DNA from: a virus | IMG/VR virus record: IMGVR_UViG_3300013772_000006 | Span: 1 to 64,000 of that record | Strand: one strand, 5' to 3' | Length of the DNA stretch: 64,000 nt | Part shown: piece after piece, positions 891 through 62,114 of the stretch | Layout of the letters: the number at the start of each line of letters is the position of its first letter | Position numbering within the stretch: position 1 is the stretch's first letter | Position numbers and translations under genes: made by a program | Notes under the pieces: generated by a model | Told to the model about the DNA's origin: nothing | Database searches by the model: none | What the model saw: only the letters and a program-made list of their open reading frames with translations

Positions 891-1433
891 TTACTTAATG
901 GGCTTTATGACGACCAGGGGGAGTTGGGTAAACCATATGCTCCAACAGGCATACTCAGGGGGTATATGCTGGATGATCTCCATCGGATCACAGTTCGCCA
1001 CGTCCTCGATAATATATATACCATCTTTCGAAAGGAACGGTAGAAGAGTAACTGCGGTACCGAGTTGCTGGGCCGGCAAATGAACAGCATCATCAACAAT
1101 CATATCAAAGTCTCCCCCAAAATACAGCGCGGCATCAATCAATGATTGTGGATTATTGACATCAGCCCAAGCGGTTAGAATACCGTTCGCGGCAAACAGA
1201 AGCTTTCGATCAACATCTAATCCATAGATATTTGCCAACGGAAAGAAATTTCGCCACATGTACAGGCTGGCACCATGCTTCGACGCGCCGCCACTTAAGC
1301 CAGGACCGCCGATACCGACCTCGAGAACTCGTCGTACCCGCTTGTCTTTCAAGAGCTCATAATAGAATGGGGTATAACCCATGTCGACTTTGTTGGTGCC
1401 GTATTGAGTGGCTAGGTTACAGAGGGGGGTCAT
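891..1433 (-). CDS. SAM-dependent methyltransferase-like protein (cephalosporin-hydroxylase/TylF-like fold)
   Basis: This 180-residue protein has a class I methyltransferase core. VLEVGIGGPG (about residues 37-46) is the SAM-binding glycine loop, NIYGLDVD gives the acidic end of strand 2, and MIVDDAVHLP is the strand-4 acidic motif. This arrangement resembles methyltransferases and hydroxylase-like relatives that act on sugars or glycosides. AAGGAG precedes the ATG, and the start overlaps the stop of the upstream methyltransferase, so both are translated together. The neighbours are sugar-active enzymes, so O-methylation of a glycan is the best guess. The substrate is unknown. Confidence 0.65.
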   Translation of the reverse strand: MTPLCNLATQYGTNKVDMGYTPFYYELLKDKRVRRVLEVGIGGPGLSGGASKHGASLYMWRNFFPLANIYGLDVDRKLLFAANGILTAWADVNNPQSLIDAALYFGGDFDMIVDDAVHLPAQQLGTAVTLLPFLSKDGIYIIEDVANCDPMEIIQHIPPEYACWSIWFTQLPLVVIKPIK

Positions 1434-2122
1434 TCCGCACTCCTTAAGACACCTGTATTTTCTATGCGCTGGCGCATAGGTGCGTTCATAATGATCTCGT
1501 CATTCAATGTCTGACGGGCATACCGAACATACTCTACGGGGTCCCAATGAGGAAGCTTCTTCACGGGCTCTATATATTTGCCGAACGCAAAGGCAAATAC
1601 CACATCTGGAAGATAGGCTAGATGAACTGAAACTCCTGACCACGTAAGCATGGCCTTGATATTGAGTAAGGCATCAAAAATTAGATTTGAGTCATGGCCC
1701 GCAAAAATAAAGTCGTCCGGCATCAGGTCAGCCAAATTCAGAACATCCTGGAAGACCGCGGCATTGGTGTGCTCAGCATCTAGGAACACAAGGTTGGGGT
1801 GTACGTTATGACGCGCCGCAAACATAGCTGTATCCATATCGTAAGTATGCAGCTTTACTAGCTGGTCTAATGGAACAGTCTTCGATAGCTCGGCTATCAT
1901 CTGTGCGGCCGTAACCCCGTACTCCCAGGTACGCCCGCGTTCATCAGGCGTTGAAGCTGGCCGCAGATCGACCGAGTGAACCGCGACACACTTGGGATCG
2001 AGAAGCGCTGGCTGTAGACTACGTCCTAACTCGGACCCAACCTCAAGATACACACACGGCTCTATAGCCTGTACGATCTGGCGAAGCTTCAAGAGAGTGG
2101 CTTGATCTACATCATACGCCAT
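1430..2122 (-). CDS. Class I SAM-dependent methyltransferase (FkbM/Methyltransf_24-like)
   Basis: Translation starts at the ATG preceded by AGGAG (MAYDVDQATLLK), 20 codons inside the longest frame, giving 230 residues. CVYLEVGSELGRSL near residues 23-36 fits the SAM-binding motif I, AVHSVDLRP fits motif II, and LVFLDAEHTNAAVFQD contains the D-x-E-H motif of Methyltransf_24-type enzymes. It sits between a DUF4422-like protein and a second methyltransferase in one leftward operon with four-base-type overlaps. A sugar or glycolipid O-methyltransferase is likely; the substrate cannot be read from sequence. Confidence 0.65.
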   Translation of the reverse strand: MAYDVDQATLLKLRQIVQAIEPCVYLEVGSELGRSLQPALLDPKCVAVHSVDLRPASTPDERGRTWEYGVTAAQMIAELSKTVPLDQLVKLHTYDMDTAMFAARHNVHPNLVFLDAEHTNAAVFQDVLNLADLMPDDFIFAGHDSNLIFDALLNIKAMLTWSGVSVHLAYLPDVVFAFAFGKYIEPVKKLPHWDPVEYVRYARQTLNDEIIMNAPMRQRIENTGVLRSAE

Positions 2123-2861
2123 GTTGTAACTCCTGACAAAAAAGAAGCGGGAGCGCCTTTGTACGTAGGCCAGAGTTCGCAAGCCAGAGAGAATATATAC
2201 GCTCCGATAGAAACGCCATGCGGCGCGGTAGGTAGATATCCGGCCGGGGGCCAGGATCGGGACATGTCGCCGGTAGCGTAGCAGTTAGCTCACATACAAC
2301 CTCCCACCAGAATTTCATCCACTCATCAAATATCTTTCCAGTGCCCGTGAACACGCAATAGCTTGTTACCGTTGGAATGTCAAACTGCACTATCCCGTGC
2401 CGGCGAAGCACCCGCTCCATTTCCTGCCAGTCCGTTAGTGAAGCCGAGACAGCAAAATCCCGGCGAATGTCTCCATTATGTGTTACATCGTATGGCGGGT
2501 TAGTTAGGATATCTGTGCGGGTCAACATGGCCTCGATGTTCGGGCCGGCATGTTCCTGTTGCCAGTTCTGGTATTGGCGGAACTCAAGCGGATCAAGGGA
2601 TACCCAGTCACCCCCCACCTTACGGTCAATACGGAAATCCAGGTGCTTACGGTAGCCCTGGAACCCGATAATATCGTCATCTTTAAAGTAGCGATCAGTT
2701 ATGCCTTGCCACACGCCATATTGGGCGATCATATCCGCAAAGCTGGTCACACCGAATAAGTGGTCCCCCTTGGCAATCGGAAATACATGGACAATCCCTT
2801 CGCGCTTAGTCAGCGGCGGATTGTGGTGATCGACCGTGTAAAGGTTTATTCTTCCAGCCAT
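2112..2861 (-). CDS. DUF4422-like putative glycosyltransferase
   Basis: A protein of about 249 residues. DDDIIGFQGYRKHLDF near residues 60-76 resembles the conserved IG..QYRR segment of DUF4422 proteins, which occur in capsule and exopolysaccharide clusters and are treated as glycosyltransferases. The C-terminus PRRMAFLSERIYSLWL also fits that family, where an FLSERLF-type segment is typical. I chose the ATG giving MAGRINLY; a GTG seven codons upstream is an alternative, and neither has a strong ribosome binding site. The start overlaps the end of the epimerase gene. Its likely role is glycan assembly with its neighbours. Confidence 0.6.
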   Translation of the reverse strand: MAGRINLYTVDHHNPPLTKREGIVHVFPIAKGDHLFGVTSFADMIAQYGVWQGITDRYFKDDDIIGFQGYRKHLDFRIDRKVGGDWVSLDPLEFRQYQNWQQEHAGPNIEAMLTRTDILTNPPYDVTHNGDIRRDFAVSASLTDWQEMERVLRRHGIVQFDIPTVTSYCVFTGTGKIFDEWMKFWWEVVCELTATLPATCPDPGPRPDIYLPRRMAFLSERIYSLWLANSGLRTKALPLLFCQELQHGV

Positions 2862-3859
2862 TCGGGGTGCTTTCGGTTCCACTCTAGTGTATGTGTCAAG
2901 GACTCGTCAAAAGAAACTGGTGGCTTCCATCCGAGGCTGGCAAGCTTAGCTCCAGCAAGCCCGTAATGCCGATCATGTCCTGGCCGGGCAGAGTGAAAAT
3001 CTTGTAGCTCATATCGCAGAGGCTTACCCAAAATTTTGGCGATTTTTTGAGCCAGTTCGAGATTGCTGAGTCGGGTGTCTCCAACGATATTAAATCGATC
3101 GGGACGATCCACTTCACCGTCAGTGTGACGATGTGGGGTGACATTTCGAAGGATGAAGAGAAGCGCATCAGCGAAGTTCCGGGAATGTATATAGTAGCGC
3201 GAACCAATTGTTTTTTCGTTTCCATGGATCGTCACCGTTTCCCCTTTCAGGACTTTGCGTTGCACGATCGCGGCGAATTTCTTAGACTGCTGCATTTCAC
3301 CAAAGGCATTCATAGTATTCGTAATAATCAGGGGAACGTTGTAGCTCCTCCAGTAGCTAATTGCCACGGCCTCCTGAGCTGCTTTAGAGGCAGCATAAGG
3401 GTTGGAGGGCAGGATGGTAGACCACTCAGGGTGCTCGTCGTGCCCGCCAGATGGCCCGTATACTTCGTCGGTGGAGATTTGAATGAAGACACTTGGCCGG
3501 TACTGGCGCGCGTAGTCCAACATATTGATAACGAGCTGAACATTATTGAGGATGAAGGGTCCTGGATCTTCGATACTGGTTCCCACATCAGAGAGAGAAG
3601 CCATATTGATGATATAATCAATTGGATTAATACGACCGGAAAGCACAGAAGAAATAGGTGTCGAGAGGTCATGCGTGTAAACATAGGTTCGTGCCTTCCA
3701 TTGGGGGTGTTCTCGGAAAATTTCGGTGATGCGATCGGTCCAGCCCTTATGCCGAAACGAGTCCAAGGCCACAACTTCCCAGTCGGTGTTCTTCATCAGG
3801 TGCGCTAGTGTATGACATCCAATCGACCCGCCAGCACCGGACAAGAGAACTCGTTTCAT
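2846..3859 (-). CDS. NAD-dependent epimerase/dehydratase (extended SDR, RmlB/GalE type)
   Basis: This 337-residue extended short-chain dehydrogenase makes or interconverts nucleotide sugars. SGAGGSIG (residues 7-14) is the Rossmann GxxGxxG loop, STDEVYG (129-135) carries the active-site Thr/Asp/Glu seen in sugar-nucleotide 4,6-dehydratases, and YAASK (155-159) is the catalytic Tyr-Lys pair. The length matches the family. The start is fixed by GGAG before ATG-AAA-CGA; a longer frame upstream lacks such a site. It overlaps both neighbours by a few bases. It probably supplies a modified sugar nucleotide to the adjacent glycosyltransferases. Confidence 0.85.
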   Translation of the reverse strand: MKRVLLSGAGGSIGCHTLAHLMKNTDWEVVALDSFRHKGWTDRITEIFREHPQWKARTYVYTHDLSTPISSVLSGRINPIDYIINMASLSDVGTSIEDPGPFILNNVQLVINMLDYARQYRPSVFIQISTDEVYGPSGGHDEHPEWSTILPSNPYAASKAAQEAVAISYWRSYNVPLIITNTMNAFGEMQQSKKFAAIVQRKVLKGETVTIHGNEKTIGSRYYIHSRNFADALLFILRNVTPHRHTDGEVDRPDRFNIVGDTRLSNLELAQKIAKILGKPLRYELQDFHSARPGHDRHYGLAGAKLASLGWKPPVSFDESLTHTLEWNRKHPEWLEE

Positions 3860-4521
3860 TTGTAATTCTCCAGCATACTCGAATTGTGTCCAGCACCATA
3901 CCAGCGAATAGGTAAAATGCCTCTCGCCTCTACCATAGCCCAATAATTCACGTCCCACAAGACGTGGCCGGTTTTCACCAGGTGCTGTAACATTGCTGTC
4001 CGTACCTCGTCATGAAGTGCGGCAACCTGTGCTGCCGGGCACACAAACATGGACCCAAGAAATCTCCAACAGGGTTCAGTTTCTGGCACAGGGGCTGGTC
4101 CCCATAAGCCCGGAAAAGCGAGATCATCTGGTCGCACCCGATTAAAGAAATCGGCTACGAGTTCTTCTGTAAACCCTTCCTGATGAAAGATCCCGTAGTC
4201 CATCCACACATATGTATCTGCTGGTTCATCCTGTAACCGCGCCATCTGTAGCCACTTCGTCTTCTGGGCAAGCACCACCATGTAGTCGAGCGTATCCTTA
4301 GCTGGGTTACCTTGGGCGGATAGGGGGACGGTCGGACCCAGACCATTTTGATCGTGCACATGGTTATATAGCCAACACTTGTCCAGCGGCCACTCGGCAA
4401 AGACCGACTTCTCGACCGGGGCCTGGAGTAACCGGTTGCTGTAATTCGTGAAATCCTCCCGCGAGCGATAGAACTCGGCGGACGGTAGATGGACATGACC
4501 AGTGACTAGTCGTACCTTCAT
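3856..4521 (-). CDS. HtrL/WlaTC-like putative glycosyltransferase
   Basis: A 221-residue protein. YVWMDYGIF near residue 104, FLGSMFVCPA near 152 and the C-terminal VLWDVNYWAMV resemble HtrL/YibB/WlaTC-type proteins found in surface-glycan loci, which are regarded as glycosyltransferase relatives. GGAAAGAG precedes the ATG. It lies between the epimerase and a methyltransferase in the same operon with overlapping ends, which supports a glycan role. The family assignment is from motif shape only and could be wrong. Confidence 0.5.
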   Translation of the reverse strand: MKVRLVTGHVHLPSAEFYRSREDFTNYSNRLLQAPVEKSVFAEWPLDKCWLYNHVHDQNGLGPTVPLSAQGNPAKDTLDYMVVLAQKTKWLQMARLQDEPADTYVWMDYGIFHQEGFTEELVADFFNRVRPDDLAFPGLWGPAPVPETEPCWRFLGSMFVCPAAQVAALHDEVRTAMLQHLVKTGHVLWDVNYWAMVEARGILPIRWYGAGHNSSMLENYK

Positions 4522-5210
4522 ATCTCTTTCCGAAATAACAGGTTCATGAACGTATACTCCAGTCCAGCCCAGGCGATAATTTTTTCCTCACACCTAGTAT
4601 CCACACTCCCGCTGTCCACTCTTAGCCCGACCACGGATGCCACGTCAATGACGCGCAGGACGTCTTGGCATGAGAATATGTGGAGTGGTGCATCATGAGT
4701 TATTAAACCGAGCGTGTCAAGCTTGTCTACCCAATAATCAAAGGACACAAACAAATGGCCACCAGGCTTCAAGATGCGCGCCACTTCCGTCAAAAATACC
4801 GGTACATCCACTCCGTGTTCAATCACGCTTAAGCAGGAAATAAACTGGAATATGTCATTCGGAAACGGTGTGCTGGTGATATCCCCATAAGCGTAGCGAA
4901 TGCCATCGCGTACCCCGGCCTTATAGTCGTCATTACGGTCAAGATTGATCCCGATTAGGTTATGAAAGCCCTGAACCCGAAGACCAGGAAGGTACGCGGA
5001 CTCATCGCCGGCACCAGCATCTAAAATCGGCTCACTGAACGAACAGCGGCGCCGTGTGTGGTGCACCGCGAGAAAGCTATCCCAATTCTTATTATTATCA
5101 GGATGAAGGGGTAACTCTTTGGGGCGCATAAAATTACATGCGATCTCCACGTCGTCTTGACGTGTGAGGGCCTTATTTGTCTGGGAGTCGACCCATTCAT
5201 TTTCGGTCAT
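4518..5210 (-). CDS. SAM-dependent methyltransferase (Methyltransf_11-like)
   Basis: A 230-residue class I methyltransferase. ILDAGAGDES is motif I, NLIGINLDRND motif II, IFQFISCLSVIEHG the strand-4 motif and ILKPGGHLFVS the family-typical post-IV segment. The start chosen is the ATG that overlaps the stop of the glycosyltransferase gene as ATGA, a common coupling in this genome. A longer frame begins inside that gene and is unlikely. By context it probably methylates a sugar or glycan acceptor. The substrate is unknown. Confidence 0.75.
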   Translation of the reverse strand: MTENEWVDSQTNKALTRQDDVEIACNFMRPKELPLHPDNNKNWDSFLAVHHTRRRCSFSEPILDAGAGDESAYLPGLRVQGFHNLIGINLDRNDDYKAGVRDGIRYAYGDITSTPFPNDIFQFISCLSVIEHGVDVPVFLTEVARILKPGGHLFVSFDYWVDKLDTLGLITHDAPLHIFSCQDVLRVIDVASVVGLRVDSGSVDTRCEEKIIAWAGLEYTFMNLLFRKEI

Positions 5211-7177
5211 AGGAACATACTCATTACGTCGAGCTTGCTCACCGTTGCAAGCCACGCTTCGCAGTCCTTGATACCATAGGAGATCACCAGCTTTTCCTTT
5301 GATGGATGCCACGCCAGCCCAGCCGCGAATTCGATCTGCCGATCATGGAGAACGAATGCCTTACTGATCTGGCGTAGCACCTTGGTAATGTCCCACCATA
5401 CAAATCGATGTTGGTAGTACCGCCGATTGTCACCCGGGCGCAACTTGGACTCGTGTACGATCGCAAGCCAGCCACCATTGAATTCAATCACCTGGGAGCC
5501 ACCACTGAGGGCCTCCACTGCAAAGGGGACCGGGGAGGGTGTTTTAACGCCGTGGCTGTTAATCAGGGTGTCCAACCGGTACACGAAGTCCAACTTGTCA
5601 CCTTGTACCCACGGCATCCAATTCTTTTCGTGGGTGGGGGTCCTCTGTATCGGGCGAGCATTGATCAAGCTACCCTCATGGATGTGAGCCGTCCACTGTT
5701 CGCACCACCCGTCCGGATTTTGTTCGCGCACATTAGCAGAAATCCATGTGCCGCCTAGCCACCCGAACAGCCGCATATCTTCAAACCCAATCACCAAAGG
5801 GTAGGTCGGGGGAGGCATATTCGGGGGGGACAAGAGTTCTTCCATGTGTGTTACGCGCAACTCTGAGCTAAGCGCAAGTAAATAGTTGCGCGTACGAATT
5901 GGGTTGCTGTTGTTGGCCGGACTGTTGATGTCTATCCCTTTAATTAGATAGCGGCCCTCTTCATCCATAGTGTAGTTTACAGAACGGACCACGACATGCA
6001 ACAGGCCATCAAGATTTGCAACCGATGGGTTCGTGGCAATATAGCCGTCCCTGGGCGTGAAATCAATCCGCTTCGCCTCAAACGACGGGCAGAGCTCTTT
6101 CAAGGGCTGCAGGTAGTAGTAGAGATTACTCCGGGCCATTTCCCGGGATCCCGGATAACATTTGGGGTCGATCGCCAGATCGCTACAGACACTATAACCG
6201 CGGTTGCGATAAGAAGGGTGATAGAAAGCACAAATAGCAAACTCTTCTCGGAGGGCTGTTGCATATACATGATCCGTTACAAAGAGGACATCGGTTGGGT
6301 AGGGGATCTTCATCCCCTCTACGGAGTACAGGAGACTGGTTTTCTGCTGATCGTGTTCGCGGTAGTGTTTGGCGAGGTCATACAGGGGTTCGGCGCGGGT
6401 CGGGCGAAAGTTATACGCATTCAGCAATTCGCGTATAAATCCATCCGTGTCATCTACTGCATTGAGACAATGGGCATAATTAAGACGAGCACTCCAAACC
6501 TCTTCATCCCACCCACCGCTGTTTATACGATTTTTGTACCACTCCGCGGCCTTGTTTGGTTGCCCGGCATCGCGATAAGACTGCGCCAGATAGTACATAT
6601 ACCGGCCGTTCTCTGGCTCTTTTTTCAGTCCCGCCAGCAACATTTCAATGTCGCGAACGAATTTATCCTTACGATTTGACCCGTCGGCATGGTCAACGAA
6701 CGACACACCCTCTAGGTGGGTGCCGCCGCCTATGTCAAGGTATTCATGGGTTACGCCGATATAGTTACCCTTCTGGTCGCGACGGATTAGTCGTCGGTTA
6801 TAATAGGATGTTCCGCCAGCAGTCTGGACGATATCATATGCGATATCAGTGAGATTGTCGAAAGCCTTGGGGTCGGTTACCGTAAGGACCATATCAGCGT
6901 CGCAAAGCAAAATATAGTTAAAGCTATGAGTACAAATACGTGCCAATTTGAGCGCGTCGTTTCGGGCTTGTTCAAAGTTCGTAAAGTGTCCTTGCTCGAC
7001 AACGCCGGGTATCTTCTTCTCCGCGAAGTAAGCAGTGATGATTTTTTGCGTGCCATCTGATGATCCTGTGTCCAAAACGGCGTACGACGATATCCACGGT
7101 GCAACACTTTCAAGGCACCGAACAATTTTGTCAGCCTCATTCTTAACGATCATATTTAACATTAACTTAACCGGCAT
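5207..7177 (-). CDS. GT2 glycosyltransferase fused to TPR and beta-propeller (GH130-like) domains
   Basis: A 656-residue multidomain protein. The N-terminus is a family 2 glycosyltransferase: MIVKNEAD near residue 9, DTGSSDG at 36-42 for nucleotide binding and LLCDADMVL near 91-99 with the DxD metal motif. A TPR-like helical segment (YYLAQSYRDAGQPNKAAEWY) lies near residue 195. From about residue 330 the sequence resembles a five-bladed propeller of the GH130-like type, with FEDMRLF, NWMPW, HRFVWWD and a closing LVISYGIKDCEAWLA. GGAG precedes the chosen ATG, which overlaps the HNH gene stop. It probably transfers a hexose to a phage-encoded acceptor; neighbouring collagen-like fibres are one candidate. 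Confidence 0.8.
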   Translation of the reverse strand: MPVKLMLNMIVKNEADKIVRCLESVAPWISSYAVLDTGSSDGTQKIITAYFAEKKIPGVVEQGHFTNFEQARNDALKLARICTHSFNYILLCDADMVLTVTDPKAFDNLTDIAYDIVQTAGGTSYYNRRLIRRDQKGNYIGVTHEYLDIGGGTHLEGVSFVDHADGSNRKDKFVRDIEMLLAGLKKEPENGRYMYYLAQSYRDAGQPNKAAEWYKNRINSGGWDEEVWSARLNYAHCLNAVDDTDGFIRELLNAYNFRPTRAEPLYDLAKHYREHDQQKTSLLYSVEGMKIPYPTDVLFVTDHVYATALREEFAICAFYHPSYRNRGYSVCSDLAIDPKCYPGSREMARSNLYYYLQPLKELCPSFEAKRIDFTPRDGYIATNPSVANLDGLLHVVVRSVNYTMDEEGRYLIKGIDINSPANNSNPIRTRNYLLALSSELRVTHMEELLSPPNMPPPTYPLVIGFEDMRLFGWLGGTWISANVREQNPDGWCEQWTAHIHEGSLINARPIQRTPTHEKNWMPWVQGDKLDFVYRLDTLINSHGVKTPSPVPFAVEALSGGSQVIEFNGGWLAIVHESKLRPGDNRRYYQHRFVWWDITKVLRQISKAFVLHDRQIEFAAGLAWHPSKEKLVISYGIKDCEAWLATVSKLDVMSMFL

Positions 7178-7553
7178 TATGGTACTCCAAGTAATCAGCA
7201 AGTGCCCGTAATATAGCGGGACTATCTTTTGCCATACCTAATGCAACATTGCATTTATGACATAGAATACCACGTAATTTACCGGTTATATGATTATGAT
7301 CTGTGTTCCAGTTTTTTGCCCCCGGCTCTCTAGTCCTACAAACCGCGCAACACGAACCCTGTACAACAAAACGGTCCTCCCACTCCACAAGAGAGGTCCC
7401 ATGATTATATAAAAGATTATTATTTCTACGTTTGATCGGATGGTTTTTAACCCAATTACGGCAATCGCGCAAATGGGCATCAGGGTGACGGGCACGCCAC
7501 CGACGATTGGCAGTATTATGGGCGAGCCTACGTTGCTCTACAGAAGCAGCCAT
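7167..7553 (-). CDS. HNH homing endonuclease, endonuclease VII-like
   Basis: This 128-residue protein has a C-terminal endonuclease VII type ββα-metal fold. CAVC near residue 73, WNTDHNHITGKLRGILCHKCN and the helical tail AILRALADYLEYH match phage recombination-endonuclease-VII-like HNH proteins, with two CxxC zinc ligand pairs and the DHNH active site. The N-terminal half is basic and probably contacts DNA. It sits between collagen-like genes and the glycosyltransferase operon and overlaps the next start by 11 bases. Free-standing copies like this one are usually selfish homing endonucleases rather than resolvases. Confidence 0.75.
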   Translation of the reverse strand: MAASVEQRRLAHNTANRRWRARHPDAHLRDCRNWVKNHPIKRRNNNLLYNHGTSLVEWEDRFVVQGSCCAVCRTREPGAKNWNTDHNHITGKLRGILCHKCNVALGMAKDSPAILRALADYLEYHNAG

Positions 7554-7591: not shown

Positions 7592-8371
7592 TCAGCCGCG
7601 GCTGATTTTTAGTGGGCCCACCATACCTACTAGTCCGGTGGAACCAGTAGTTCCACTAATGCCGACCGGATAGAACGTGCCGGTACTACCGGTCGCGCCA
7701 CCTGTTGGTCCGGGCAGGAAGTAGGTCGAATAGATAGTCATGCCAGCGTTATACACCGCACCGGAAATGTGAGGGTCGCCGACCGGCGGCATGAAGAAGG
7801 CACCCGTCATTCCGACGTAGGCGGCGGCCACGGGGCCCGCCTTACCCGGAGGCCCTATAACACCCGTCGGGCCTGTTGGCCCCGCGGGACCTGCTTTACC
7901 AGTCACACCTTGAGGGAGTGCCGAAGCGGGACCAGTCGGGCCAGTGCCAGCAGTCGGGCCAGTAACGCCACCAGCACCGATAAAGCCTGGACCAACCGGA
8001 CCAGTATAGCCTGTTGAAATACCGTGTGGTCCAGTGGCACCTGCGCCGCCTGTTGCCCCAGTGGCGGCTGTTGGGCCGAGTGGGCCACCAGGACCGACAA
8101 CACCTGGATCGTTCTGTCGGCCGGTAGGACCAACAAGCGCAATATTAGCCGGACCAGCAAGTACAGGACCGGTAGGACCAGCTACACCACCAACCAATAG
8201 AGTAGGACCGGTAGGGCCCACGCGACCAGTCGCGCCGCGGGCACCGTACATATCCGCGTCGTTGATCTGATCTACTACCTGTTTAAGGACAGTCGGTATC
8301 GAGTTATCGTCAAACGTATCCGGAAGTACCGGATCAGGTGCAATAGCGCCAGGTGGCGGAACAAAAACCAT
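7592..8371 (-). CDS. Collagen-like repeat fibre protein
   Basis: A protein of about 259 residues. After an N-terminal segment (VLKQVVDQINDADMYG, similar to the next protein upstream) it carries some 45 Gly-X-Y triplets dominated by Gly-Pro-Thr and Gly-Pro-Ala, with interruptions that look like small non-triplet inserts. Such triplets form trimeric collagen-like rods in phage fibres. The ATG follows GAGAGG with good spacing; a TTG two codons earlier is possible. Together with its neighbour it probably forms a surface fibre or decoration. Threonine in the Y position offers potential O-glycosylation sites. The C-terminus lacks a recognisable receptor-binding domain. Confidence 0.8.
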   Translation of the reverse strand: MVFVPPPGAIAPDPVLPDTFDDNSIPTVLKQVVDQINDADMYGARGATGRVGPTGPTLLVGGVAGPTGPVLAGPANIALVGPTGRQNDPGVVGPGGPLGPTAATGATGGAGATGPHGISTGYTGPVGPGFIGAGGVTGPTAGTGPTGPASALPQGVTGKAGPAGPTGPTGVIGPPGKAGPVAAAYVGMTGAFFMPPVGDPHISGAVYNAGMTIYSTYFLPGPTGGATGSTGTFYPVGISGTTGSTGLVGMVGPLKISRG

Positions 8372-8389
8372 AGTCAAGCCCTCTCGTTA

Positions 8390-8989
<600 letters not shown>

Positions 8990-19519: not shown

Positions 19520-19740
19520 GTGGCCTGAGCCTTTACCAGCTTGGCAATATAGGCCGCGTCGGCCTTCTTGCGGTCATTGCGGCGCTTGGTCCGGGCCTGA
19601 GCCTTTACCAGCTTGGCAATATAGGCCGCGTCGGCCTTCTTGCGGTCATTGCGGCGCTTGGTCCGGGCCGGGTCATCGGACTTATTGACATAGGTGTACA
19701 AGCCCTTTTGTATCTTTATAAGATGACATTGTTGGCGCAT
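19516..19740 (-). CDS. Small basic protein with exact internal duplication (74 aa)
   Basis: A 74-residue, very basic protein. A 24-residue unit with the core RTKRRNDRKKADAAYIAKLV occurs twice in tandem because the DNA is duplicated. AGGT precedes the ATG. The positively charged helix could bind nucleic acid or membranes; one copy may be the ancestral form. No family is recognised. It is coupled to the next gene by overlap. Confidence 0.55.
   Translation of the reverse strand: MRQQCHLIKIQKGLYTYVNKSDDPARTKRRNDRKKADAAYIAKLVKAQARTKRRNDRKKADAAYIAKLVKAQAT
19522..19667. repeat. 72-bp tandem duplication inside a small gene
   Basis: Two essentially identical 72-base units lie side by side (about 19522-19593 and 19594-19665), followed by the first bases of a third. 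The unit length is a multiple of three, so the reading frame is kept. The near-perfect identity implies a recent duplication or a site prone to copy-number change. Confidence 0.85.
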
Positions 19741-20461: not shown

Positions 20462-20815
20462 TTATGTATTTTTACTTAATTGTGGGTATCGCTTGGCCAT
20501 CGCCGTCGCCTTAAGCCGCTTGGCCTCAGCCTCGAGTTCATCGATTGTTTGTGTCAATTTTATTTGCACCGCGGCATCCGTCGACCATATATCTAATTGC
20601 TCGTCCGTCATTTCAAGCCGGTCATTGGGAATTGACATCCAGCAATATTTAAGCTTGGGTACCCCCGGATAGGTAAAGGCCATTTTGAACCAAGTACCCG
20701 TATACCCTTCGGGACTACTATTCGTAATATCGTGTAGGGAGGCATCGGCCGTCGCGAAATAGGCCGGCAGCTTGGCGTCGATCGCCTTTTGGATCTGTAG
20801 GGCGGTTATTTTCAT
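20462..20815 (-). CDS. Hypothetical protein (117 aa)
   Basis: A 117-residue protein with an early helix (ITALQIQKAIDAKLPAYF), a central beta region with TWFKMAFTYPGVPKLKYCW, and a C-terminal coiled helix (IDELEAEAKRLKATAMAKR). Its start overlaps the stop of the 57-residue gene as ATGA, and it closes a three-gene unit that begins with the Acb2-like gene. No family is recognised. Confidence 0.55.
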   Translation of the reverse strand: MKITALQIQKAIDAKLPAYFATADASLHDITNSSPEGYTGTWFKMAFTYPGVPKLKYCWMSIPNDRLEMTDEQLDIWSTDAAVQIKLTQTIDELEAEAKRLKATAMAKRYPQLSKNT

Positions 20816-20985
20816 GGCCGAAGCATCAGGTGCTGTTTAATATATTTAAGTGCTTCCTCTATCGTAGTGCAGGCAAATACGGGATGCTCGGTACAAAACT
20901 GGTGATCAGAGGCACCGGATATGGTATAGCCACCGTCGGATAGAGCGGTTATAATAAAGCGCCAAGAGGTTGCGATCGGGGTCAT
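20812..20985 (-). CDS. Hypothetical small protein (57 aa), partner of Acb2-like gene
   Basis: A 57-residue protein (MTPIATSWRFIITALSDGGY ... EEALKYIKQHL) that overlaps its upstream and downstream genes as ATGA at both ends. It reads as two beta strands followed by a C-terminal helix, and the composition is that of a compact domain. Tight coupling to the Acb2/Tad1-like gene makes it a candidate anti-defence accessory. The function is unknown. Confidence 0.55.
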   Translation of the reverse strand: MTPIATSWRFIITALSDGGYTISGASDHQFCTEHPVFACTTIEEALKYIKQHLMLRP

Positions 20986-21203
20986 TGCCGGGGAGCTCCG
21001 TCAGGTTGCCGGGTTATAGCCACATTTATCCACATGGCCAGAGAGCGCAGCTCCCGCAGGATGAAGGTCTTATCGGGACTGTCGGGTAATTCAAGTTCCA
21101 ACAGCCGACAGTAGTCCCCGTTAGCCTTGTGGAACGTGGCCATCTGTAGGATCTGGGCGGGGGTGGGCTTGAGATATTCGAACGTCGTGGGGTGTAGGGG
21201 CAT
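20982..21203 (-). CDS. Acb2/Tad1-hairpin-domain-like protein, anti-CBASS candidate
   Basis: A 73-residue protein. FEYLKPTPAQILQMATFHKA followed by LPDSPDKTFILRELRSLAMW and INVAITRQ closely follows the pattern of phage Acb2/Tad1 hairpin-domain proteins: an N-terminal strand, a helix, a PDS..K motif and a helix ending in a W.N.AI.R-type pattern. Acb2 proteins sequester cyclic oligonucleotide signals and so block CBASS immunity. AAGG lies five bases before the ATG. The gene heads a three-gene unit. The family call is from remembered motif pattern, so it needs profile confirmation. Confidence 0.6.
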   Translation of the reverse strand: MPLHPTTFEYLKPTPAQILQMATFHKANGDYCRLLELELPDSPDKTFILRELRSLAMWINVAITRQPDGAPRQ

Positions 21204-21221: not shown

Positions 21222-21521
21222 TCAGAGTGGTGGCAAAGTTGGAATATCCGCGTATGGGTCAACCGTATAGACCTTAATCTTTCGAACAGCGTTGTCAAGC
21301 CAGTCGTCCATATCCTTGCCGGTAAGCCGGCTCACAAAGTAGAAAAAGTGCCGGCGCGGCTCGCGGCCGGTGGCTATCATGACCTTGAAGATCCGCTCCG
21401 TGCCCTTTGGGGTGTCAACCAGCTCGATCTTGGGCGGGTTCGGGAACTGGAACTTAGGCCCTAATTTGACCTGGAGGACCTTGGCTATCGTGTCGGGGGT
21501 CAGGTTTTCATAGAGGGCCAT
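21222..21521 (-). CDS. Hypothetical protein (99 aa), start uncertain
   Basis: The part from MALYENLTPDTIAKVLQ reads as a compact alpha/beta domain with RHFFYFVSRLTGKDMDDWL and an acidic Pro-rich end. The open frame extends about 60 codons further upstream to a GTG, but that section looks less protein-like and the sigma70-like promoter beyond it would make it a leader. No start has a good ribosome binding site, so the true N-terminus is open. No family is recognised. Confidence 0.5.
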   Translation of the reverse strand: MALYENLTPDTIAKVLQVKLGPKFQFPNPPKIELVDTPKGTERIFKVMIATGREPRRHFFYFVSRLTGKDMDDWLDNAVRKIKVYTVDPYADIPTLPPL

Positions 21522-21716
21522 ATTGAAAAATACCCGTTTTCTGTCGCTTTTTGAGTATGTGACAAGGTAGCACGCTGGGTTCCGGTGATCAGCACGGTCC
21601 AATAGGTGCCACCTTGCTGGAGTCCGAGTCATCAGGTCCAAATCCATGGCTGAGTGCGAACTCTCATTTACCCGCTGCCTGCATGCCAAGGAACGGGGAC
21701 CACGGACCACGGGAAC

Positions 21717-21923: not shown

Positions 21924-21952
21924 GGGTTACACCTTGGGCCCTTAGGTGTCAA
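21924..21952 (-). promoter_or_regulatory. Sigma70-like promoter
   Basis: On the minus strand TTGACA (21952-21947), 17 bases, TAACCC (21929-21924), lying just before the zinc-finger gene. The -35 overlaps the last codons of the cytosine methyltransferase gene. Confidence 0.45.
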
Positions 21953-22805
21953 GGTAGGCGCCTATGAACCGCGCCGCGGGCCGCGGGTCGATGGCGTTCC
22001 CAAATCCGCGCAATTTACCCACTCTATTGGGTACCCCATGAGCCAGCAGACGAACTCCGGGTTTAACGCGCCGGGCTTTTCCGTCGGCTCCGAGGACCCA
22101 TTCATAACCTGCAGACTGAGAGCTGTTAGAGCCACTCCCAGCTTGGCTCCATTCGCTACCGCCTTCCTTTTTCGCTGAAGGAATTGCTCTGGTGTCCCAC
22201 CTGCAGGGCGCGCGACCGGAGTTGCCCAAACTGTCCTCCCCAGCAACCCGTTCACCGGTACGTTCGGGCAATATGGGCCGTCCTTGTGGTCCCGCTGGGT
22301 TGCCGTCGGCCACAAACCAGTATCGGTCCCTGAGGTGGTCCGCCCCCGCGCTCGCGGCCTGGATAGGCATTGCCCCCACGGCGTAGCCCATGGTTTCCAG
22401 GTCACTTCGCACAAGTCCGAGCCATTTAGCCGCTGACGCAACCTGCTCTCCAAAGACGACTGGAGGGCGTCCGACCTCGATGAGGGCCTTGAAATAGGGC
22501 CATAGGTGGCGTTCATCCTTGAATCCTCCTTGTTTTCCGGCAAGGGAGAATGGCTGGCACGGGCAACTGCCGGTCCATACAGGTCGATCGTCAGGCCATC
22601 CGGCCAGACGGAGGGCATAGCTCCAGCCCCCGATACCGGCGAAAAAGTGGCATTGGGTGAAGGTTTTAAGGTCATCCGGGGGTACCTCCGTTATGGATCG
22701 GTCATCCACCTCGCCGTCAGCAATAAGCCCCCTGAATATCAGGGCTTCGAGCCAGCGTACGGCGAAAGGGTCGTTTTCGTTATAATATGTGTATGGTTTA
22801 GGCAT
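21942..22805 (-). CDS. DNA C5-cytosine methyltransferase (Dcm family)
   Basis: A 287-residue enzyme that transfers a methyl group from SAM to cytosine C5. FFAGIGG (54-60) is motif I, GSCPCQPFS has the catalytic Pro-Cys (82-84 PCQ), VVFGEQV (about 117-123) replaces the usual ENV of motif VI, LRDRYWFVA near 158 is motif VIII, and RGFGNAIDPRPAARF near the C-terminus is motif X. It is short for the family and the target recognition region is small. A solitary phage methyltransferase of this kind probably protects phage DNA from host restriction. AAGG before the ATG and a sigma70-like promoter are visible. A second protein may be encoded within it. Confidence 0.85.
   Translation of the reverse strand: MPKPYTYYNENDPFAVRWLEALIFRGLIADGEVDDRSITEVPPDDLKTFTQCHFFAGIGGWSYALRLAGWPDDRPVWTGSCPCQPFSLAGKQGGFKDERHLWPYFKALIEVGRPPVVFGEQVASAAKWLGLVRSDLETMGYAVGAMPIQAASAGADHLRDRYWFVADGNPAGPQGRPILPERTGERVAGEDSLGNSGRAPCRWDTRAIPSAKKEGGSEWSQAGSGSNSSQSAGYEWVLGADGKARRVKPGVRLLAHGVPNRVGKLRGFGNAIDPRPAARFIGAYLDT
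21962..22675 (-). CDS. Overprinted protein inside the cytosine methyltransferase gene
   Basis: A 237-codon open frame on the same strand, one frame shifted, lying wholly inside the methyltransferase gene. It contains segments I recognise from hypothetical proteins of proteobacterial phages: SSLESRLRQRLNGSD, EVTWKPWATPWGQCLSRPRA, GLWPTATQRDHKDGP, GGTPEQFLQRKRKA, then GALNPEFVCWLMGYPIEW. In those phages the same protein is also encoded out of frame within the methyltransferase gene. This argues for a real overlapping gene. The start may be the first ATG or one further in (MNATYGPIS). The function is unknown. Confidence 0.5.
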   Translation of the reverse strand: MTLKPSPNATFSPVSGAGAMPSVWPDGLTIDLYGPAVARASHSPLPENKEDSRMNATYGPISRPSSRSDALQSSLESRLRQRLNGSDLCEVTWKPWATPWGQCLSRPRARGRTTSGTDTGLWPTATQRDHKDGPYCPNVPVNGLLGRTVWATPVARPAGGTPEQFLQRKRKAVANGAKLGVALTALSLQVMNGSSEPTEKPGALNPEFVCWLMGYPIEWVNCADLGTPSTRGPRRGS

Positions 22806-22811
22806 GAGCGG

Positions 22812-22840
22812 GTGGTACCTTATGTCAGTGGGGGTGTCAA
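22812..22840 (-). promoter_or_regulatory. Sigma70-like promoter for the methyltransferase gene
   Basis: On the minus strand TTGACA (22840-22835), 17 bases, then TACCAC (22817-22812). The -10 match is weak and overlaps the region just before the ATG, where AAGG is also the likely ribosome binding site, so the leader would be very short or the start leaderless. Confidence 0.4.
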
Positions 22841-23241
22841 GCCTCAGCCACCCTTTTTAATCGGCGCGATCGCCTATATGCTGCACCGCATGGCTTACAG
22901 TAGGTCTGGTAGCTATCCTTTGATCCGCTGCATATAGGGCAGGTAATCCCATATCCCCGCGGGCGCCGGCCAGACTGGGTTAAAAGCACAGTGGTTTTGT
23001 CATAGTTGTGAAGGGGGTTCTCGTCGAGTAGGGCACTCGCTTCGGCCTTGCGTGCGGTATGCCAGTCCGGAAACCACTCAATCCTGGCCGTGGCGATATC
23101 TCGAGCCCACGATTTTGTACCGTGGCTCTGTAGGCGGGTGGCGAAGGGATTTTGAGACATCCCGATATATAACAGCTTGTCTTTGATGTCGAATAGCCTA
23201 TATATAGCATGTGGCAAGGTGGCGCGGTCTTTATGGGTCAT
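22837..23241 (-). CDS. GIY-YIG nuclease-like protein with zinc finger
   Basis: A 134-residue protein starting at ATG behind GGAGG. AIYRLFDIKDKLLYIGMSQN (about residues 12-31) carries the two strands of a GIY-YIG domain, TRLQSHG and EWFPDWHTARKAEASALLDE provide the Arg and Glu of the active site, and NPLHNYDK closes it. The C-terminal part adds CPIC ... YCKPCG, a zinc finger, and a basic tail. It is probably a free-standing homing-type nuclease, or possibly a restriction-like early enzyme. It is the first gene of the leftward accessory block beside the control region. Confidence 0.7.
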   Translation of the reverse strand: MTHKDRATLPHAIYRLFDIKDKLLYIGMSQNPFATRLQSHGTKSWARDIATARIEWFPDWHTARKAEASALLDENPLHNYDKTTVLLTQSGRRPRGYGITCPICSGSKDSYQTYCKPCGAAYRRSRRLKRVAEA

Positions 23242-23264
23242 CGGTACCTCCATTGGTTGGGTAT

Positions 23265-23293
23265 ACCTTACCACCTTGACATAAGTGTGTCAA
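23265..23293 (-). promoter_or_regulatory. Sigma70-like promoter for the leftward accessory block
   Basis: On the minus strand TTGACA (23293-23288), 17 bases, TAAGGT (23270-23265), about 25 bases before the GIY-YIG gene. A second TTGACA (23302-23297) overlaps it, so two registers are possible. This is the leftmost signal of the divergent control region. Confidence 0.5.
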
Positions 23294-58058: not shown

Positions 58059-59243
58059 TTATCCGAGTTTCACGATACGTAAGGCGGAAACAAAGTAGTT
58101 GGCGCGAGAACGTGTAACAATGGTACCTTGCTGCAAGACGTGAACTTCAACATAATCCGTGATCCCATTTAAGAACGCCACCGTAGACAAGTTAAGATAG
58201 ACCTGTCCGTTCTGTTGCAGTGAAAACACGGCCACGTCATTACCGCTCACGTCAATAAAGGAAACGGCAAAACCTGAAACCGTGTTATTACAAATGACAA
58301 CAGCATATATTTCGTAGGTTCCAGACTGCGTCGGGGTATACCGGTGGGTCGTTATATTAAACGCGCTCTGCGTATCCGTAACAATCGTGTCTATGGCTAA
58401 CGTAGTGTCGGTCAAGGTCACAACAGTTTGGTCCACGCTTTGATAGGCATCCAAGACGATCACGGCATGACTTGCCGGCCCTTGAGCTCCATTTGGGCCC
58501 GTATAACCAGTTGAACCCGTGGGTCCCGTCACGCCCTGTATGCCTTGCGCCCCGGTAGGACCAGTGGGGCCCGTATAACCAGTTGAACCCGTGGGTCCCG
58601 TCACGCCCTGTATGCCTTGCGAGCCCTGTGGCCCAGTCGGTGCTGTAGGACCCGTGGGTCCCGTCGCGCCCTGTATGCCTTGCGAGCCCTGTGGCCCAGT
58701 CGGTGCTGTAGGACCCGTGGGTCCCGTCGCGCCCTGTATGCCTTGCGCCCCGGTAGGACCAGTGGGGCCTGTGGGTCCGCCGCCTGCTGGACCAGTCGGA
58801 CCAAGCCCTCCGGAGCCGGTTGGTCCAGTAGTTCCACCGCCGGTGGGGCCTGTTGGCCCAGTTCCGCCTAACGTTCCATTAAATCCGGTAGGGCCTGGTG
58901 GCCCTAGGATCGACAGTAGCAATGCCGCGTTCGTATCCGATGCGAACACAGGGCCACCATTCGTGCCGATGAAAAACTCCATGTGGTCGTAGCGGCGCTG
59001 GCCGATCGACGTGTCCTGTTCGATGATCACATTGAACTGATCGTTCAACGTGCCACCGTTTAAATAGAAGCTGTAGGATGTACCATTGGCCGCGATGACA
59101 ATCGTGTCAGTCGTCGCGGTGCCGGCATCAACCGTGCAGGTGATCCCGGTAATTGTCTCACCGGTCAATAACCAAGGCGTGCAGTCAATGACATACTGCG
59201 TCCGGTTCCCGACGAGCTGTTGTTTGCGGCCGAGGACGGTCAT
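58059..59243 (-). CDS. Fibre protein: adaptor domain, collagen-like shaft, C-terminal head
   Basis: A 394-residue fibre. Residues 1-100 form an adaptor-like domain ([36 protein letters not shown]). About residues 105-245 are Gly-X-Y triplets, many of them GPTGPTG with GAQGIQG insertions, including exact DNA-level repeats. The final 145 residues are a beta-rich C1q/TNF-like head ([36 protein letters not shown]). GAGGTG precedes the ATG, which overlaps the upstream stop. It is a likely receptor-binding or decoration fibre. Confidence 0.75.
58500..58760. repeat. Tandem DNA repeats in a collagen shaft
   Basis: A unit starting GTATAACCAG at 58501 recurs at 58573 (period 72), and a unit starting GAGCCCTGTG at 58621 recurs at 58684 (period 63). 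Copies are virtually identical. Both periods are multiples of nine, so whole collagen triplets are gained or lost in frame. Confidence 0.75.
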
Positions 59244-60352
59244 TAGTTCACCTCAAAGAGAACACAGTTCAGATTATTCAATAGGCTACTGTTGGCGGTT
59301 GTAATTGCTTCAACCTGTAAATCAGTCCAAATGGCGGTATGGAGAGCTAAGCCGGTGATGAGCGCGGAAATGGAAAATGGAATCTTTAAGTCTGCAATAG
59401 CCGTTAGTGTCGTGCCCGTATCATATTGTTGGACCATTCCAACGACCTTTCCGGTCGCGGCAGCCCCCCTAGCGGGGGCTGCCCCCGTGCCAAATGCAAT
59501 TCTATATTGGATTCCGACGTTCGCGGTTGTCACGCTGGCGGTGATATATCCAGAAATATTACATATTACCGTTCCAGTAACGACAGGTGTAATAGCGTCT
59601 TTCAGTCCCATCATGGTAAAGACAGCCGTACCAGTGGCACCAGTCGGGCCTAACCCAGTTGTGCCACTTACTGCCCCGTGCAGGGCGGGACCAGTTGGAC
59701 CAGTCGGACCCCCAGATGGGGGCCCAGTAACACCTGTGGGCCCAGTCGGCCCAGTCGGCCCAGTCGGCCCAGTCACGCCCTGGCCGCCTGCGCTGCCTTG
59801 CGCACCAGTCGGGCCTGTCGGGCCAGTGACGCCCTGGATGCCCTGGCCGCCTGCGTTGCCTTGCGCACCAGTCGGGCCTGTCGGGCCAGTAGAACCCGTT
59901 GCCGCGGTAGGCCCTTGTGGTCCGGTAGTCCCCGCACCAGAGGGACCAGTAGGACCCGTTCCACCAAGTGTCCCATTAAACCCGGTAGGACCAGTCACAC
60001 CTGGTGTACCGGCACCAGTGGGACCTACGATCGACAGCATCAATGCGCCGTTGGGCGAGAGGAAATTGGGGCCCCCGTTTGTCTCGACGAAGATTTCAAA
60101 ATGATCATAGCGGATCTGGGTGAGCGACGTCGTGGCCTGCACGATGACGTTGAAGTTGTCACCCAGCGTACCGTTGTTAAGATAGAAACTGGCCGTTGAG
60201 GAGGTGAATGTAATGGTGTCAGTCGTCGCGGTGCCACTATCAATAATGATAGCAATAGCCGTGATCACCTCACCGGCAGCGAGCCAGGGCGCGTAGTTGA
60301 TATTATAAAGCCGGCGATCACCGACGATTTGGAGTTTGCGCCCTAGGTGCAT
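59243..60352 (-). CDS. Fibre protein: adaptor domain, collagen-like shaft, C-terminal head
   Basis: A 369-residue paralogue. Residues 1-103 ([36 protein letters not shown]) are the shared adaptor. Residues about 108-230 are collagen triplets with NAGGQGIQG and SAGGQG inserts, and the C-terminal 140 residues form a different beta head ([20 protein letters not shown]). It thus keeps the anchor and changes the tip relative to its neighbour. Its ATG overlaps the stop of the 39-residue gene as TAATG. Confidence 0.75.
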
Positions 60353-60471
60353 TACACCCTCTCGTCGACTAGAAGGGTGTTCTCCTGGTCTGGTACAAAG
60401 ATAACGTTGTCCTCTACAGGGACAACTACGTTGTGATCATCCGCGGGGACCATAATGGTTTCGTTTTCCAC
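60352..60471 (-). CDS. Hypothetical acidic microprotein (39 aa), GTG start
   Basis: A 39-residue acidic protein ([20 protein letters not shown] ... DERV) of short strands. GTG start behind GGGAGG, one base after the upstream stop; its own TAA overlaps the fibre ATG. The repeated V-P-x-D/E motif ([22 protein letters not shown]) looks like three copies of one strand. It may be a small virion or fibre-assembly factor. Confidence 0.55.
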
Positions 60472-60472
60472 A

Positions 60473-61126
60473 TCAGCCTCCCTGGAAATACCCGGCGGAT
60501 ATAGGGTGTGGAATGGGGCCGGCTAAAATTTCCACCTGGAAGTCATCGTGCGCCGAAGCATTCGCCTGGTTATATGAAATCGCTGGGGTGGTACCCGGTG
60601 AGGCCATCGCAATACTGGCCAAGAGTAGCGAATTGACAGGGCCAGCTACCGCGGTATACCCAGCTGGTGTGGCTAGTGTTCCTGAATTGGACCCTTCCAT
60701 ATCCAGCACAAGACTGTTAACACCGGCAGTACTCAGGGAACCGCCGCTAAATATAGATGACGCACCGTTGTCCGAGTTGGTCTTATTGAAATTACCAATT
60801 GGGTTTGAAGTAGATACGCTTTGCACTTGAACCAGCTGACCCTGACAGCTAGTACTAGTGACATAGGACACATTCGGTGCTGCGTTGCTTGCTACCACGC
60901 GGTACCAAGCCCACGAGCAGCTTAGATCATTAGCGGTTGCTGTATTAAACTTATCTATTTCCGTCCAACCAGCGGGCCAAGTAAACGTAAGGCCATTCTG
61001 CGCGCTATAGATAAAGCCAACAATGATATTACCGGCAACGAGAGAGCCAGGTAAAGTCAATGTTAGATTGGTCGCAAGGGCGGTGTGCGTATTTGCGCCA
61101 ATAGATGCAACAGTAGGGCCAGCCAT
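60473..61126 (-). CDS. Beta-rich virion protein (217 aa)
   Basis: A 217-residue protein. VASIGANTHTALATNLTLTL, IIVGFIYSAQNGLTFTWPAG and DFQVEILAGP make a beta sandwich of a kind frequently found in phage tail or fibre genes. AAGGTAAA precedes the ATG. It lies between two collagen-like fibre genes, so a fibre-associated or decoration protein is likely. Confidence 0.6.
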   Translation of the reverse strand: MAGPTVASIGANTHTALATNLTLTLPGSLVAGNIIVGFIYSAQNGLTFTWPAGWTEIDKFNTATANDLSCSWAWYRVVASNAAPNVSYVTSTSCQGQLVQVQSVSTSNPIGNFNKTNSDNGASSIFSGGSLSTAGVNSLVLDMEGSNSGTLATPAGYTAVAGPVNSLLLASIAMASPGTTPAISYNQANASAHDDFQVEILAGPIPHPISAGYFQGG

Positions 61127-61127
61127 T

Positions 61128-62114
61128 TTACCTTGCGACCTTTAATGCCAGGGTCAACCGTTGACAGGTAGTGTCACTGTCCACATTGAACCCGAGCACC
61201 GTGCCCGCGGCCAGAGCGGTTGACCAACTAGTGAGTGTGCTATCTTGCGCCTTTGTTGCCGCTGTAATAGTAGGCGGCGTCGTCGATGTAATCTTATCCG
61301 CCGCAACGGGGTGTGTCGCGCCACTATCAAACTGGGCGTACGTACAGGCCCAGATATTGACAATGGCTGAGCCCGTTTGATCGGCAAGCAACGTGGCTTG
61401 CTTGATTGTGCAAGCGAAGTCAATGAACAGATACCCCTTGAAGCCAGCAACTATCGTGGATCCACTACCGTCGATCACGAACGTAATATCGGATATCGAT
61501 GGACCGGTGGCACCCGTTGGCCCAAGCGACCCCGTAGGGCCCGTCAGTCCAGCAGTGCCACCAGTTGGCCCGAGCGACCCCGTGGGGCCAGTTGGGCCAG
61601 TTAGTCCGGCGGTTCCGCCGGTTGGACCTTGAACGCCTGTTGGCCCTAAGCCAGTCGCACCGGTTGGCCCCTGGTTACCAGTCGGGCCACCAGATGGTGG
61701 GCCAGTTACACCCGTGGGCCCGCTTGCACCGGTTGGGCCTTGATTACCTACAGGGCCACTTGCACCAACGGGGCCTGTTGCACCGGTTGGACCAACCGCG
61801 GTTGGACCTGTCGGGCCTGTTACACCACGTGGACCCGTTGGCGCCGTGGGACCTGTCGGGCCAGTTGGACCCGTACCGCCTGTCGGGCCAGTTGGACCGG
61901 TTACGCCAATAGGACCAGTGGGGCCTGTCGGCGCGGTTGGACCAGTAGGTCCTTGTGGACCTGTCGCCGCGGTCGGGCCTTGCGGACCTGTAGGTCCAGA
62001 GAGGCCACCTTGTTGTAATGCAATGACCGCACCGACAACGTTGTCCAGCATACGGTCATAGGTTTGCCGATCATAATGCAGAGAAGTGTAAAGACCCGTC
62101 GGACCTGTGCTCAT
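61128..62114 (-). CDS. Collagen-like fibre protein (328 aa)
   Basis: A 328-residue protein. [20 protein letters not shown] forms a short N-terminal helix distinct from the adaptor domain of the neighbours. About residues 36-205 are collagen triplets dominated by Gly-Pro-Thr, with [10 protein letters not shown]-like inserts. The C-terminal 120 residues are a beta head ([39 protein letters not shown]), a type found on other phage fibres. It overlaps the tail adaptor's stop. Likely a surface fibre. Confidence 0.75.

Follow-up and report, generated by a model that had tools for sequence, protein, structure and literature searches.

A divergent Acb2/Tad1-type hairpin protein of soil phages, a putative cyclic-nucleotide sponge with an altered ligand pocket

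Acb2 of T4 (Vs.4; PDB 7uq2) and of PaP2 (p26; PDB 8h2j and 8h2x) are short stand-alone proteins of family PF24729 with a three-helix layout. T4 Vs.4, which belongs to PHROG 717, forms a hexamer with three ligands; its Kd for cGAMP is close to 30 nM, it contacts cGAMP through Y8, H11, K23, R79, and F82, and its T12 serves as a helix cap (PMC10097602). Acb2 binds trinucleotides at another, separate site, and Tad1 (PDB 7uav, 8kbe, and others), which has the hairpin domain of PF24729, binds gcADPR and carries an N-terminal beta sheet (PMC12043709). A further solved protein, "Acb2 homolog 43" (PDB 9ptq), is a 76-aa stand-alone hairpin with six chains in the entry. Acb2 genes have already been named by annotators in cultured actinobacterial phages (PMC13348362, PMC11953737). 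The kind of protein that we describe here is thus already known, and the new part is a soil branch of the family and its altered pocket.

The window analyzed (64,000 nucleotides, positions 1 to 64,000 of IMG/VR virus record IMGVR_UViG_3300013772_000006) covers all but a small part of a virus record of 66,595 bases. The genes under study are as follows.

21222..21710, minus strand: 162-aa ORF of the same strand block, directly upstream of acb2 and separated from it by 18 bases
20982..21203, minus strand: acb2, 73-aa Acb2/Tad1-type helical hairpin protein and putative cyclic-nucleotide sponge, assigned by PF24729, fold, and a chain of profiles
20812..20985, minus strand: 57-aa ORF overlapping acb2 by ATGA, with weak codon-usage support and without relatives
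20462..20815, minus strand: 117-aa ORF overlapping the 57-aa ORF by ATGA, with one relative (in locus L001)

The first-pass annotation had described three overlapping genes at 20462-21203, and all three were recovered on the minus strand as claimed, with 4-base ATGA overlaps at both junctions (73/57-aa and 57/117-aa). For each ORF, the annotated frame had the highest codon-usage score (0.05, 0.03, and 0.16 for the 73-, 57-, and 117-aa ORFs, versus -0.15, -0.05, and -0.15 in the best other frame), and codon-usage support for the 57-aa ORF as a gene is thin. The 73-aa ORF is preceded by a Shine-Dalgarno-like stretch (AAAGGTAACAAGGTC-ATG) and no other in-frame start codon lies between it and the nearest stop on its upstream side. 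Full-length matches to its product, at 48 to 67% identity, occur in many other virus contigs, a degree of conservation that places this ORF far beyond chance.

Scored alone against PF24729, the 73-aa protein reached 14.3 bits, under the Pfam curated cut-off of 27, whereas several close relatives scored 30.8 to 38.5 bits and all 24 aligned family members matched (E values up to 1; best, 1.4e-9). The profile check that had been suggested for this gene gives matches across the family, with the single protein itself under the cut-off. A genome search with PF24729 found six soil-phage records over the curated cut-off (the positive control, T4, scored 70 bits). A PF24729 search of the window's own genome gave no match, because the 73-aa protein is too divergent. 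NCBIfam gave no match, and T4 Vs.4 is likewise unmatched there. The soil branch also matched two phage families without assigned function, PHROG 1454 (24 of 24 aligned members) and PHROG 31113 (23 of 24). A viral-contig scan with the 73-aa protein as the query returned 27 relatives, and a scan with an alignment of relatives returned 209 encoding stretches in IMG/VR, 80 of which were retained as the locus set used below.

The soil branch could be linked by sequence to a solved Acb2 through intermediates. PDB sequence searches with the 73-aa protein, two relatives (L012 and L088), and two soil-family profiles found no sponge, and up to an E value of 10 neither the 73-aa protein nor those profiles matched 9ptq directly. 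The cultured-phage collection likewise held no match to the 73-aa protein itself; searched with the relative L012, it yielded proteins in Gordonia, Mycobacterium, Lactococcus, and other phages, and four of these cultured-phage relatives, each taken alone, scored 49 to 78 bits against PF24729. A profile of the cultured-phage proteins (A6), built without any soil sequence, aligned with the soil-family profile (A3) in hhalign at 98.3% probability (E = 1.7e-14 over 65 columns), and the same A6 profile matched 9ptq in the PDB at an E value of 4.7e-5. The chain from the soil family (A3) through A6 to 9ptq thus establishes the link, and the gap between the soil branch and the PDB sponges is bridged by the cultured-phage relatives only. 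Compared directly with T4-type Acb2 alone, the soil profile gave a weak result; a combined T4 and PaP2 profile scored above all 100 column shuffles against the soil profile, both locally and globally. A comparison of the soil profile with another alignment (A5) was set aside as circular, the T4 and PaP2 matches of A5 being there by construction.

The AlphaFold2 single-chain model of the 73-aa protein (pLDDT, 94) has helices at residues 5 to 8, 15 to 38, and 43 to 64, that is, a short helix followed by two long antiparallel helices, the same layout that is described for Acb2 (PMC10419184, PMC12043709). The strand-helix-PDS..K-helix pattern noted in the first-pass annotation stands in part: the PDS..K turn is found at P40-D41-S42-P43-D44-K45, but the first element is predicted as the short helix rather than a strand. 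Foldseek placed 7uq2 (T4 Vs.4 with cGAMP) at rank 1 in the PDB, with a weak score (E = 2.0), and a second aligner gave 7uq2 (Z = 6.9) and 8h2x Acb2 (Z = 6.4) as its top two, against a helical-bundle background at a Z of ~13. Absolute scores are weak, as expected for a small hairpin, and the rankings are therefore taken as supporting evidence only. Compared with T4 Acb2, the 73-aa protein has a shorter turn between the helices and ~18% identity in the alignment; the short PEGREK turn of 9ptq resembles the PDG/S-PDK turn of the soil branch. The N-terminal beta sheet of Tad1 is absent from the model. By the first-pass annotation's own terms, the lack of both a profile match and a hairpin fold would have spoken against the assignment; the outcome was the opposite, with the profile match above the cut-off in relatives, and the assignment is backed by the family profile, the intermediates to a solved homologue, and the fold. 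We conclude that the 73-aa protein genuinely belongs to the Acb2/Tad1 hairpin family PF24729, as a divergent member.

Several relatives lie in settings worth recording on their own account. One relative is found in a bacterial (Rhizobiales) contig, L037, and scores 38.5 bits to PF24729. This contig has terminase- and portal-like genes downstream, as judged by eye, and is read as a prophage for that reason; a search of its genome for SMODS-type CD-NTases, which covered one CD-NTase family, found none. A second bacterial-contig match is L038. One viral contig (IMGVR_UViG_3300027903_000003) has matches at both of its ends (L013 and L026), which suggests that the genome is circular or permuted and was cut within the acb2 relative. 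The cultured Rhizobium phage RHph_Y2_17_1 encodes a PF24729 protein (L157:1399-1731; 58.7 bits) that is annotated merely as hypothetical, and this gene overlaps a gene for a putative HslV-family peptidase by four bases.

To compare the ligand pocket, residues of T4 Vs.4 were mapped onto the window protein with the Pfam end points and an N-terminal alignment that is nearly free of gaps. T4 Y8 corresponds to Y10, with Tyr in 65 of the 67 distinct relatives and Phe in the other 2. T4 K23 corresponds to position 25; 66 of the 67 have Arg there, and the window protein and one relative have His. The spacing seen in T4 Vs.4 (Tyr-x14-Lys) is thus retained. A Tyr and, 15 positions after it, a basic residue are features in common with Acb2, as is a C-terminal QPD/QPE stretch past the last helix. 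T4 T12 corresponds to T14. The contacts H11, R79, and F82 are not kept, falling on P13, V61, and T64, and with these three replaced, the 73-aa protein does not keep an intact dinucleotide pocket of the T4 type. The window protein also has Ser at position 42, where its relatives have Gly. In the soil branch, R50, R53, N60, R65, D68, G69, and R72 are invariant, and a D-G-x-P-R tail is likewise fixed. Acb2 homologues themselves keep the T4-type contacts only in part, as PaP2 illustrates. On these residues, we read the 73-aa protein as a putative sponge with an altered site.

The altered site also invites the reading that this is a member of the hairpin fold with another job, for example, a helical adaptor associated with packaging or replication, that binds no immune signal. 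Helical hairpins are common folds, the new invariant residues could serve a different interaction, and several relatives' genes lie near packaging or replication genes, all of which would fit such a role as well as the loss of R79 and F82 does. On the other hand, no neighbor occurs in more than 9 of the 80 loci, which is unlike part of a fixed machine. The cultured-phage relatives with a match to the solved Acb2 homolog 43 lack equivalents of R79 and F82 as well, and the absence of these residues is therefore normal in this branch. We consider a role outside immune-signal binding unlikely.

In our preferred reading, the 73-aa protein, as a divergent hairpin of the Acb2 type, is very likely homologous to the known sponges and is probably a sponge itself. 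By analogy with characterized homologues, this stand-alone protein would most likely assemble into a hexamer, which would bind and sequester a cyclic oligonucleotide from a CBASS-like or similar nucleotide-signal defense of the host. With its signal sequestered, the defense effector would stay off, which would amount to CBASS inhibition.

Within the sponge reading, the signal may be something other than a CBASS dinucleotide, such as a cyclic trinucleotide or the gcADPR of Thoeris. The separate trinucleotide site of Acb2 and the gcADPR binding of Tad1 (PMC12043709) provide precedents, the branch lacks R79 and F82 of the T4 dinucleotide site, and one cultured-phage relative, gp46 of the Gordonia phage Anon, weakly matches Tad1 chains (E = 0.013). 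Against this, the 73-aa protein has no Tad1-type N-terminal beta sheet, and the ligand is not readable from sequence here. We regard such a signal as possible, if on balance not the expected outcome. Somewhat more tentatively still, we speculate that the soil branch may form a separate subfamily of sponges, whose own pocket captures a signal that T4 Acb2 does not bind. That pocket, on the same tentative footing, might comprise Tyr10, Arg25, Arg50, Arg53, Asn60, Arg65, and the conserved PDG-x-PR tail, and the signal could possibly be an as yet undescribed one of soil bacteria.

The gene neighborhood bears on the proposal, made in the first-pass annotation, that the two overlapping genes are anti-defense partners of acb2. 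On this reading, the three genes would be one anti-defense operon, with the 57- and 117-aa proteins acting as added inhibitors. The ATGA overlaps are in keeping with it, and a C5-cytosine methylase gene lies ~0.7 kb upstream on the same strand. The arrangement is partly repeated in L001, where the 117-aa ORF has its single relative (56% identical across the aligned positions), which starts inside the acb2 stop codon with the same 4-base overlap and with no 57-aa ORF in between. A relative of the 162-aa ORF likewise lies upstream of acb2 in L001, which has several further neighbors in common with the window; this is a related phage rather than an independent one, and its synteny therefore carries little weight.

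Across the locus set, the partners are not retained. A relative of the 117-aa protein is found in only 1 of the 80 loci, on the L001 contig itself, and further searches gave nothing credible beyond it; the 57-aa ORF has no relative in the 80 loci or in further searches. In 21 of the 80 loci, acb2 shares four bases with an ORF downstream; the partner proteins vary, so that the overlap reflects compact phage gene packing, and the gene after acb2 differs from phage to phage with or without it. The commonest neighbor gene cluster occurs in only nine loci; the larger neighbors seen most often, none in more than 9 of 80, resemble genes for recombination, replication, and packaging when judged by eye. 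Such a wide spread with changing neighbors, in tightly packed phage genomes, is what an accessory gene would show. The partner proposal thus finds no support here, and we find a three-gene anti-defense operon quite improbable; the 57- and 117-aa ORFs are most likely unrelated small phage genes that are co-transcribed by position. The AlphaFold2 model of the 117-aa protein (pLDDT, 82) has a helix, three beta strands, and a long helix. Fold searches with it gave no confident match; there was a weak resemblance to T7 Gp1.2, a dGTPase inhibitor (E = 0.19), and several BFVD matches were unnamed podophage proteins, which is a lead toward a possible host-takeover protein.

Other features of the window were recorded in passing. 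Upstream of acb2 on the same strand, 21942-23274 holds the C5-cytosine methylase gene (PF00145) and a gene resembling those for GIY-YIG nucleases; the methylase could be an anti-restriction gene. A 74-aa ORF contains, at 19522-19669, an exact tandem duplication of 72 bases (2.1 copies, 100% identical) that produces a repeated lysine/arginine-rich segment and may be a recent event or an assembly effect. Methyltransferase-, sugar epimerase-, and glycosyltransferase-like genes were seen by eye beside collagen-like (GPTG repeat) proteins at 891-7201, 7592-8989, and 58059-62114, perhaps reflecting tail-fiber modification.

Overall, a 4-base overlap with an acb2-type gene is poor evidence for a common anti-defense role, and the copy in RHph_Y2_17_1 offers a cultivable test case for PF24729 proteins. 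The membership of the 73-aa protein ties a large, unnamed soil-phage group (more than 200 encoding stretches; PHROG 1454 and PHROG 31113) to a known class of immune-signal sponges, and through this tie, the function of the group becomes testable. If the soil branch binds a different signal, it would point to an undescribed nucleotide defense in soil bacteria.
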